Position numbers and translations under genes: made by a program. Under the pieces are notes generated by a model that saw nothing but the letters and a program-made list of their open reading frames with translations, had not been told where the DNA came from and made no database searches. A stretch of 38,780 nucleotides of DNA from Hyphomonadaceae bacterium (GTDB lineage: Bacteria; Pseudomonadota; Alphaproteobacteria; Caulobacterales; Aquidulcibacteraceae). Below are positions 15,081 to 35,761 of the stretch, one piece after another (the stretch's first letter is position 1; each line of letters begins with the position of its first letter). Location of the stretch: contig JAPUEP010000212.1 of NCBI GenBank assembly GCA_027492515.1, forward strand, positions 1-38,780, written 5' to 3'.

Positions 15081-16316
15081 TTAAGCCACATGTCGGCGTA
15101 ATGGCGTTTGGATTTGTTCCCCGCCTTGGATATATTCCATTTCTGGCTTTGGCATTCCAAATAACATGCCTTGGGCAAATCCTAAATCAAGCTCAAGGAT
15201 TTCAACGATTGTACGCTCGCTTTCAACGCGGTCAGCGATTAAATCAACGCCATAGCGTGCGAATAATGATGCAACATCGCCTGCGTCAAATTCACGTGCA
15301 AGGCCAGTAATTGGGCGAACATTTTGGCGAACCAATTGTTCAACCAATCTTTCGCCTGCGATTTTAACATAACGAACACCCATGCGTTCAAGTTTGCGCA
15401 AATCAAGATCAACACTATCACAACGATCTATTGAAAATCTAAAGCCCAAATCAAACAAACGCCCCATATTGCGTTCGGCAGTCATTGATAATCTATCAAA
15501 TGCATCGCGGGTTAATTCAAAAATTATAGAGCCTGATAAATCGCGGTTTTCGCGCAAGAAATCAATAAATTGACCAAAGAAAGTTTCATCCGCCAAAGAG
15601 GTTGGCGATAAATTGCAAAATAAAGAAATTCTTTTATCGCGTTTCACCATTTTGCGCGCAAGATGCACAGATTTTAACAATAACATATTGTCGATTTCGG
15701 CAACTAAACCTGAATGTTCTGCAACGCGCAAAAATTCACCCGGCAAAATTAAATTGCCTGAATTATCACGAAGGCGTGTATAGCATTCATAAAACGCAAT
15801 GCGGCGCTGTGGCAAGGAAACAATAGGCTGTAGATGAAGTTCAACCCGATTTCCTTCGATTGAATCTTTTACTGTTTGCAACAAATTACGCTCTGAACGG
15901 CGCGGCGCGGCAGTCGGATTGGCAATTTTTTGTGCTTGGGCTTTTTGCATACGTGATGCAAATTCAGATATGCCGATTGCAATATCCCTAAGTTCGCTTG
16001 TTATTTTTTCTTCACGTGCGCGAACTTCATCATAAATTTCAGCTTTGAATTTTTCTAAATCTTCGGCTTGTTTGGCTTGGATAGAAGAAATTTCATTGAA
16101 TTTATTTTCAATTTTTTGTGCTTCCTGCTTTGATAGTTTGGCTTTGCGCGGTGAAAGCCCAACATGCAAAAGCCCGCAACCAAGCATAAACATTCCGCCC
16201 AAACAGCCAGAAATAACAATCGAATAATCATACATATAATAGGCTGTGGCACCTAAACCGACACCAATACCCATATAGGCTATGATTAGAACTAAATTTA
16301 CTGCCAGACCGAACAA
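15081..16316 (-). CDS. tipF: TipF-like membrane protein with degenerate EAL domain
   Basis: A 411-residue protein with two hydrophobic segments (about residues 5-25 and 30-52), a charged coiled-coil stretch (about 60-130) and a C-terminal EAL-type domain (about 145-395). This order matches Caulobacter TipF, a c-di-GMP-binding flagellar assembly factor at the pole. The EAL active site is degenerate: the EAL triad reads ECY (177-179), the usual DDFG reads DRCD (297-300), KID reads KIA (318-320), and AEGVE reads ADRVE. Phosphodiesterase activity is therefore unlikely, and a c-di-GMP receptor role is more plausible. The start is a TTG at 16316 with GGAG 6 nt upstream. The TipF name is an inference from architecture. 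Confidence 0.75.
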   Translation of the reverse strand: MFGLAVNLVLIIAYMGIGVGLGATAYYMYDYSIVISGCLGGMFMLGCGLLHVGLSPRKAKLSKQEAQKIENKFNEISSIQAKQAEDLEKFKAEIYDEVRAREEKITSELRDIAIGISEFASRMQKAQAQKIANPTAAPRRSERNLLQTVKDSIEGNRVELHLQPIVSLPQRRIAFYECYTRLRDNSGNLILPGEFLRVAEHSGLVAEIDNMLLLKSVHLARKMVKRDKRISLFCNLSPTSLADETFFGQFIDFLRENRDLSGSIIFELTRDAFDRLSMTAERNMGRLFDLGFRFSIDRCDSVDLDLRKLERMGVRYVKIAGERLVEQLVRQNVRPITGLAREFDAGDVASLFARYGVDLIADRVESERTIVEILELDLGFAQGMLFGMPKPEMEYIQGGEQIQTPLRRHVA

Positions 16317-16410: not shown

Positions 16411-16596
16411 TTAGTTTTCAGTATCTTCAGCATTAGAAGTTTCAATAGAAATCCCGCGCTTTTTCAAAGCTTCCATAATTAGGATTTCCATTTGCGCATT
16501 AGTTGAACGAAGTTCAGACGCCGCAAGCCTTTCCACTGCCGCCATTGTTTTGGGGCTTATACGCAATAGGAAAGGCTTTCTAGGTTTCGCGGCCAT
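16411..16596 (-). CDS. Arc-like ribbon-helix-helix DNA-binding protein
   Basis: A 61-residue protein with a basic start (MAAKPRKPFLLRIS), a strand PFLLRI, and two helices around PKTMAAVERLAASELRS and TNAQMEILIMEALKKRG. This is the ribbon-helix-helix pattern of Arc/MetJ/HicB-tail regulators, which act as dimers on palindromic operators. It starts 9 nt after the stop of the SPFH gene and is surely co-transcribed with it. I infer that it represses this operon through the 30-bp palindrome at 17512-17541. Small RHH proteins also occur as antitoxins, but no toxin-like gene is here. Confidence 0.85.
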   Translation of the reverse strand: MAAKPRKPFLLRISPKTMAAVERLAASELRSTNAQMEILIMEALKKRGISIETSNAEDTEN

Positions 16597-16605
16597 TTTT
16601 ATAAC

Positions 16606-17496
16606 CTAATAAATTGTACCAGTATTAAGAACAGGTTGCGCATCCTTATCAGAGCAAAGAACCACAAGAAGGTTTGCAACCATTTGCGCTTTGCGTTCTT
16701 CATCAAGATTTACAACGCCGCGGTCTGATAATTGTTGCAAAGCTTGTTCAACCATACCGACCGCACCATTTACAATCAAAGTCCGCGCCGCAATTACCGC
16801 TTGTGCTTGTTGGCGTTTTAACATTGCACCCGCAATTTCTTGGGCATAGGCAAGGTGTGAAATACGCGCTTCATCAACCATCATACCGCCAACATCAAGG
16901 CGTGCATTCAAGCGTTCGCCAAGTAGTTCGGCTACTTCTTCGGCATGACCACGTAAAGTTAATTCGCCTTCAACTGCATGATCATATGAATAATGCGCGG
17001 CAATATCACGAAGCGCAGTATCAATTTCAATACGGCAGAAGCTTTCATAAGAATCAACATCAAACAAAGCCTGTGCACTATCTTTTACGCGCCAAACCAC
17101 ATTTGCAGCAATTTCAATTGGATTTCCGTCTTTATCATTCACTTTCAAAGTGTCAGAAGTAACGTTGCGAACCCGCATAGATATTTTTTTGCGTGTTATC
17201 CAAGGAAATACCCAACGCAAACCTTGCGCCCTATCTGTGCCTTGATATTCGCCAAACATTAATAGTGCAAACGCTTCATTTGGCTGAATAGAATAAAAGC
17301 CAGACAAGCCTAAAACACCCAATACAAGAACAATTATACCAACAAAAATGAATGCTTCATCGCCTTTAGAAACAAACATAAAAATTGAAATTAAAATTGC
17401 CGCTAGGAAAATTATGAACAAAGGAACACCTGGAATAGATGCACCCTGACGTTCTTGTGTTCTGTTTATTGCCTTTATTGGATTATTTTGTGTCAT
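16606..17496 (-). CDS. SPFH/Band 7 (prohibitin-like) membrane protein
   Basis: A 296-residue protein. Two hydrophobic segments (about residues 25-45 and 50-70) are followed by an SPFH domain beginning GFYSIQPNEAFALLMFGEYQG and running through LRWVFPWITRKKISMRVRN and ANVVWRVKDSAQALFDVDSY. A helical region with VDEARISHLAYAQEIAGAML and an Ala/Gln-rich stretch follows, as in other flotillin/slipin-type proteins that assemble into membrane rings and organise proteases or lipids. The start ATG at 17496 has AGGAGGG close by; a TTG directly before it (17499) is less likely. It forms an operon with the RHH regulator at 16411. The cellular role is unknown. Confidence 0.9.
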   Translation of the reverse strand: MTQNNPIKAINRTQERQGASIPGVPLFIIFLAAILISIFMFVSKGDEAFIFVGIIVLVLGVLGLSGFYSIQPNEAFALLMFGEYQGTDRAQGLRWVFPWITRKKISMRVRNVTSDTLKVNDKDGNPIEIAANVVWRVKDSAQALFDVDSYESFCRIEIDTALRDIAAHYSYDHAVEGELTLRGHAEEVAELLGERLNARLDVGGMMVDEARISHLAYAQEIAGAMLKRQQAQAVIAARTLIVNGAVGMVEQALQQLSDRGVVNLDEERKAQMVANLLVVLCSDKDAQPVLNTGTIY

Positions 17497-17511
17497 CAAA
17501 CCCTCCTGAGT

Positions 17512-17549
17512 TGATATAAAAATGATATCAATTTTATATCATGTGTCAA
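17512..17549 (-). promoter_or_regulatory. Promoter and palindromic operator of the SPFH-RHH operon
   Basis: Plus positions 17512-17541 form a 30-bp palindrome with one mismatched pair: arms TGATATAAAA (17512-17521) and TTTTATATCA (17532-17541) flank a central TGATATCA (17523-17530), all on one axis. On the minus strand a -35 box TTGACA (17544-17549) and a -10 box TATCAT (17522-17527) are 16 nt apart, so the palindrome covers the -10 box and the spacer. The repeated half-sites, about one helical turn apart, suit an RHH repressor, which the operon itself encodes. Confidence 0.7.
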
Positions 17550-34820: not shown

Positions 34821-35761
34821 GATTGAAAGAATTAAATTCTTGGATAATTTCAATCGGCCTGCATGGATTATTATTTATGGCCGCTATTTTCACATGGAAA
34901 ACCAATAAGATAATAAATCCTGACCCATCGATTTCGGTTGATATCATTGCAGAAAATGCACAAGATATTGGCAATTCTGCGCAAATGGCGGATCAACAAA
35001 ACCAATTATCACAAGAAGAAAGCACAAATACCCCCCAATCACAAGCAAGTGAAATCGCCCCACCGCCGCCGCCGCCAAGTGAACCGATTATTCAACAAGC
35101 ACCAAAACCGATTGAAACCAGCGCCCCAAAACCTTTGGAGGCTTTGAAAGCTTTAATTTCAAAGCCACAACCAAAACCCGCGCCAACAATTCCAACGCCA
35201 AAACCTGCGCCAATTCAAAAAGCACCAACGCCGACACCGCAACCACAAACACCAATAAAAAAGGCGATTACTGCGCCGCAGAAAACAATTAGCAAAGCAC
35301 CAATACAAAATGATAATATTGATTATCGCTTTGACATTCCTGCTGCGCAAAAATCATCATCGGGCGTCAATTCGGGCGTTAAAAATGCGCCAAAGCTTAC
35401 TTCATCTGGTCAAACCTCAAAAGGGCAAGGTCAAGGTGCAGGTAAAAAGCTTCAATCAGGTCTTGAAAATGTTTTGCGTGACCAAGTTAAAAGATGTTGG
35501 GTTGAACCTGCCGATTTATCGGATAAACAAAGCCTTTTGGTTGAATTGCAAATTGAACTAAATGAAAATGGAACTTTAATGCGTGTTCCAAAACTAATTT
35601 ACCCAAATTCAAAATCAGGTGCTAGTGCATCTTTATTAGTTGCAATCGACAATGCAATTCGCGCAACCAAACAATGCGCACCCTATGTTTTGCCACCTGA
35701 TAGATATGCCGAATGGCAAAATTTCACTTTCCGCTTTGACCCGCAAAAATTAAGACATTAA
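34817..35761 (+). CDS. tolA: Tol-Pal system protein TolA
   Basis: Spans the periplasm and links the TolQR motor to Pal/TolB. The 314-residue protein has a membrane anchor (about residues 9-27, ISIGLHGLLFMAAIFTW), a long linker rich in Pro, Ala, Lys and Gln (about residues 65-170), and a C-terminal TolA/TonB-like domain (about 215-314) with VLRDQVKRCWVEPADLS and one more Cys near KQCAPYVLPP, probably a disulfide. The linker is Pro/Lys-rich and so more TonB-like than the Ala-rich helix of E. coli TolA. Confidence 0.92.
   Translation: MRLKELNSWIISIGLHGLLFMAAIFTWKTNKIINPDPSISVDIIAENAQDIGNSAQMADQQNQLSQEESTNTPQSQASEIAPPPPPPSEPIIQQAPKPIETSAPKPLEALKALISKPQPKPAPTIPTPKPAPIQKAPTPTPQPQTPIKKAITAPQKTISKAPIQNDNIDYRFDIPAAQKSSSGVNSGVKNAPKLTSSGQTSKGQGQGAGKKLQSGLENVLRDQVKRCWVEPADLSDKQSLLVELQIELNENGTLMRVPKLIYPNSKSGASASLLVAIDNAIRATKQCAPYVLPPDRYAEWQNFTFRFDPQKLRH

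Follow-up and report, generated by a model that had tools for sequence, protein, structure and literature searches.

In the Arc system of phage P22, which belongs to the MetJ/Arc ribbon-helix-helix (RHH) repressors, two Arc dimers occupy a 21-bp operator at the promoter, on subsites with a spacing of 11 bp. Operators that are well kept over distances as large as those described below are uncommon; the HrcA/CIRCE operator and the NrdR boxes are near-constant over many phyla and stand ahead of the same genes. To our knowledge, little is known about the control of bacterial SPFH scaffolds, and no published description of an SPFH-RHH module was found in the open-access literature. RHH dimers of the omega repressor, from the omega-epsilon-zeta module, polymerise on promoter rows of short repeats (PMC4803016). 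RHH autorepressors that act on repeated short sites are already known (Arc; omega, PMC4803016), and what appears to be new here is an SPFH-RHH case with unusually deep operator conservation.

The locus described here lies in a window of 38,780 nucleotides (the whole stretch of DNA that was analysed) and resembles Arc in that it encodes a small RHH protein, whose family profile matches over F-x-LR ... RS-N ... E-x-x-x-G. Unlike Arc, the system is chromosomal and paired with an SPFH gene, its subsite is TGATATCA, and it has up to three subsites. The omega repressor uses heptad repeats (NATCACN) at a toxin-antitoxin locus, whereas the SPFH-RHH operator consists of 8-bp palindromes at an 11-bp pitch. 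Like CIRCE and the NrdR boxes, this operator is kept across phyla before the same genes, but the regulator fold and the targets are different, and the SPFH-RHH site serves one operon.

Results

The coordinates of the operon, its promoter and the operator subsites are given in Table 1.

Table 1 Features of the SPFH-RHH locus in the window
Feature	Position	Strand	Remarks
-35 box TTGACA	17544..17549	-	CTTGAC/CTTGCA at a similar place in close orthologs
Operator subsite 1	17534..17541	-	reads TGATATAA on the minus strand, 7/8 match to TGATATCA
Operator subsite 2, central, perfect TGATATCA	17523..17530	.	
-10 box TATCAT, TG ahead of it	17522..17527	-	mostly within the central operator site
Operator subsite 3	17512..17519	-	reads TTATATCA on the minus strand, 7/8 match to TGATATCA
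Shine-Dalgarno AGGAGGG of the SPFH gene	17501..17507	-	sequence
SPFH/Band_7 membrane protein gene	16606..17496	-	Pfam Band_7 E 2.3e-23, 83.6 bits, cut-off 23.6
61-aa Arc-like ribbon-helix-helix protein gene, proposed repressor	16411..16596	-	Arc profile match

The SPFH protein scored far below the cut-off of the HflK/HflC models, and the gap between its stop and the RHH gene is 9 nt. The statement of the first-pass annotation that the second gene of the operon encodes a 61-residue RHH protein was borne out by the family profile. On the single sequence, the Pfam RHH_1 model stayed below threshold (14.6 vs 20.5 bits); a profile of 13 RHH relatives matched phage P22 Arc (1u9p, E 3.2e-8; 1arq, E 5.1e-4), in an alignment that covers both the F-x-LR strand and the RS-N helix start, and the Pfam Arc model matched 6/13 family members (best E 5.2e-5). 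Of the Arc strand residues Gln9, Asn11 and Arg13, the RHH protein keeps the Arg only (R12), and position 10 is mostly L/A/P. The tails of the family are variable past about residue 50. The AlphaFold2 model of the monomer reached a pTM of 0.38 and consisted of one long helix with no strand, and an RHH protein folds only as a dimer. No toxin family was found among the Pfam matches in the two-gene operon. Public labels of the RHH family are misleading and include 'PTS ascorbate transporter subunit IIC' and 'toxin-antitoxin system HicB family antitoxin' (L118:3995-4192; NZ_CP098495.1). A gene for an EAL-domain protein with an N-terminal membrane segment lies 94 nt behind the RHH gene (15081-16316, minus strand). 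The neighbouring EAL and ileS genes were considered as parts of the module and rejected, because L002, the closest of the fetched relatives, is the only one in which they adjoin the pair; the EAL gene is thus probably outside the module.

A 30-bp palindrome with 28 of 30 positions symmetric had been described upstream of the operon, and this was confirmed at 17512-17541 as a 15+15 inverted repeat in which 14/15 pairs are complementary; when the whole window was shuffled 100 times under a first-order Markov model, one shuffle contained a comparable 30-bp palindrome. The TGATATCA said to occupy its centre, with outer TGATAT/ATATCA on the same axis, was likewise seen at 17523-17530 and in the flanks, and the minus strand reads TGATATAA-aat-TGATATCA-ttt-TTATATCA over the palindrome and TTGACACATGATATAAAATTGATATCATTTTTATATCAACTCAGGAGGGTTTGATG over the operator/promoter region. 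As had also been proposed, the palindrome covers the -10 box of a TTGACA-16-TATCAT promoter (17549 to 17522, minus strand), which has 11/12 consensus matches and a 16-nt spacer. The three subsites span about -34 to +4 of this promoter, the array overlies the promoter spacer, the -10 box and the predicted start, and the leader before AGGAGGG is very short. The ATG at 17496, behind AGGAGGG, is a better SPFH start than the upstream TTG. The sole other copy of TGATATCA in the window (34939-34946) is missing from the genome-wide list of two-site arrays and is thus probably a chance occurrence. In the home genome, a two-site array with at most one mismatch occurs at this one place only, which suggests that its binder would be a dedicated one; a wider regulon in this genome was rejected on the same count, as there was no second array with at most one mismatch.

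SPFH orthologs were present in 34 of 61 related genomes, and the RHH gene was present in the identical 34, adjoining SPFH on its downstream side in 30/30 fetched loci. Just upstream of SPFH, the exact TGATATCA was found in 27/30 close orthologs, and the remaining three kept 7/8 positions there (TGATATTA once and TGATATCG twice). A sequence-only operator model, built from 52 sites and used at a threshold of E<=0.01, matched 26/34 pair-bearing genomes, at the SPFH promoter, and 0/27 pair-less genomes (Fisher p 1.6e-10, which overstates independence because the relatives share descent). The best match in any pair-less genome had an E of 0.017, about chance for so many genomes, and the other matches of the model in relatives were weak (E>=0.017). 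The operator site is linked to the presence of the RHH gene, as in an autoregulated operon.

Searching 84,980 species genomes with the RHH protein alone yielded 80 loci, a set that includes near-duplicate Pedobacter and Undibacterium loci and whose counts carry no correction for shared ancestry. An SPFH gene lay on the same strand, upstream of the RHH gene, in 79 of the 80, and the exception (L067) is cut by a contig end. Among the 77 loci with usable upstream DNA, the promoter region of SPFH contained the exact TGATATCA in 71, at a density 167-fold that elsewhere in the same distant loci. Four of the six loci without the exact site kept 7/8 positions, and L076 and L105 had no operator in the searched upstream region; in Rhizobium (L120) the operator is degraded, with two 7/8 sites off pitch. 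The first-pass annotation had set conservation of the palindrome upstream of orthologous operons as a test, and the 8-mer is conserved there, being exact in 71/77 distant loci and kept at 7/8 or better in 30/30 close ones. Judged by their record titles, the loci come from nine phyla (Pseudomonadota, Bacteroidota, Acidobacteriota, Verrucomicrobiota, Armatimonadota, Actinomycetota, Bacillota, Planctomycetota and Cyanobacteriota), a spread that is independent of the near-duplicates, and plasmid-collection records add a tenth, Deinococcota. The exact site was also found in 5/8 further records that have SPFH. The module is patchy, with the RHH gene in 28/299 genomes sampled evenly across the home phylum.

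In Burkholderiales and Bacteroidota, accessory genes separate SPFH and RHH in some loci. Genes found in this position encode a DUF1648-like protein (L051:2497-2994), uncharacterised probable membrane proteins (L071, 2477-2998; L075; L046, 712-3002), an ABC-2 exporter (L110:1047-3001) and an alpha/beta hydrolase, and the uncharacterised probable membrane proteins share a GGWGxR-like motif. On the Thermus thermophilus plasmid pTthSNM1-7c (L117:1900-4168), the last gene of an ABC-2 exporter operon encodes an RHH protein of this family; this locus has no SPFH gene nearby and no TGATATCA array.

Around the central site of 71 distant loci, TGATATCA-like 8-mers occurred at lags +11 and -11 only, with a mean match of 5.69/8 at +11, the position of subsite 3 (z 10.8), and 4.82/8 at -11, the position of subsite 1 (z 8.2), vs a background of 2.06 at other lags. 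At least one flank matched at 6/8 or better in 86% of the loci, and the quality of the left and right flanks was anticorrelated (r=-0.41), many loci having one good flank only. Arm complementarity beyond the central 8 bp was seen in only 32-66% of distant loci per pair. Together with the anticorrelated flanks, this rules out a single 30-bp palindrome as the unit. Thus, of the 'three-part palindromic operator' first described, the palindrome is real, but the conserved unit is the 8-bp site at an 11-bp pitch. The flanks vary independently of each other, so that the element consists of 8-bp sites placed in a row at intervals of one helical turn, and two such sites are probably enough. Acetoanaerobium has, behind TTGACA, two perfect sites at the 11-bp pitch. 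This pitch is also found in Parabacteroides, which has TAATATCA twice, and in Prevotella, which has two copies of TGATATTA; in each case the two copies share the same change, as a single protein reading the pair would lead one to expect. The layout is that of an Arc/MetJ-type operator, with short subsites repeated about one turn apart over the -10 box.

Discussion

Judging from sequence comparison, we consider it very likely that the SPFH-RHH operon is governed by a negative feedback loop, in which RHH dimers would cooperatively shut off their own promoter. The autoregulatory loop predicted by the first-pass annotation thereby gains support from the conservation of the site, its linkage to the RHH gene and a geometry that would suit Arc-like dimers. 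In the proposed mechanism, RHH dimers would bind the 8-bp TGATATCA sites 11 bp apart on the same face of the helix; neighbouring dimers would bind cooperatively, with the perfect central site as the nucleation point. Dimers bound at about -34 to +4 would keep RNA polymerase off the -10 box, and the operon would be turned on when the RHH level drops or the RHH protein is drawn away. Relief may come from simple dilution or titration of the RHH protein or, more speculatively, from its sequestration by SPFH or by clade-specific accessory membrane proteins.

Many dimeric regulators could use an 8-bp palindrome, and the palindrome might serve a different, unlinked transcription factor, with the RHH protein doing something else. 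We regard this as very unlikely, because the site tracks the SPFH-RHH pair over ten phyla, is absent (E<=0.01) in the 27 pair-less relatives and, unlike that of a global regulator, is unique in the home genome. It is exceedingly improbable that the repeat acts as a nucleic-acid structure (an RNA hairpin, an attenuator or a cruciform) and not as a protein site: the 14/15 complementary pairs in the window would suit such a structure, but in distant loci the outer arms are complementary in 32-66% per pair, left and right flank quality are negatively correlated (r=-0.41), and the central 8-mer keeps one sequence with no co-variation. In addition, the start predicted for the transcript lies on the downstream side of the central site and would leave most of the repeat untranscribed, which argues against an RNA structure. 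The central site as a simple -10 element was also rejected, as inspection by eye found that several Betaproteobacteria have a -10-like TATAGT/TAAAGT just before the central site and not inside it, and that the site persists in Bacteroidota, a phylum with other promoter elements.

Control of the toxin-antitoxin kind, in which complex formation with the SPFH protein would alter the DNA binding of an antitoxin-type RHH repressor by conditional cooperativity or membrane sequestration, has in our judgement a very small chance of being correct. The gene order is opposite to that of most antitoxin-first pairs and the operon is without a toxin family, although the two-gene operon has the RHH gene second, one relative bears the NCBI label 'toxin-antitoxin system HicB family antitoxin', and the variable RHH tails after about residue 50 could be a contact region. 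The autorepression core is common to this reading and to the negative feedback loop that we favour.

A broader proposal, which we consider possible but doubtful, is that this is a bacteria-wide dedicated SPFH-RHH module with an operator near-unchanged over at least ten phyla, in which the RHH protein would sense the state of the membrane. Such sensing might work, for example, through contact of the RHH protein with the SPFH scaffold or with those accessory membrane proteins whose genes lie between the two in some clades. The deep conservation of the operator suggests that the dosage of the SPFH protein matters. Kept together with its operator over about ten phyla, the two-gene module offers a candidate repressor that is amenable to direct test, and the operator motif could be used to annotate many small proteins now called 'HicB/Arc family' or 'hypothetical'. 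The module may also provide a route to the signal that induces this SPFH family.
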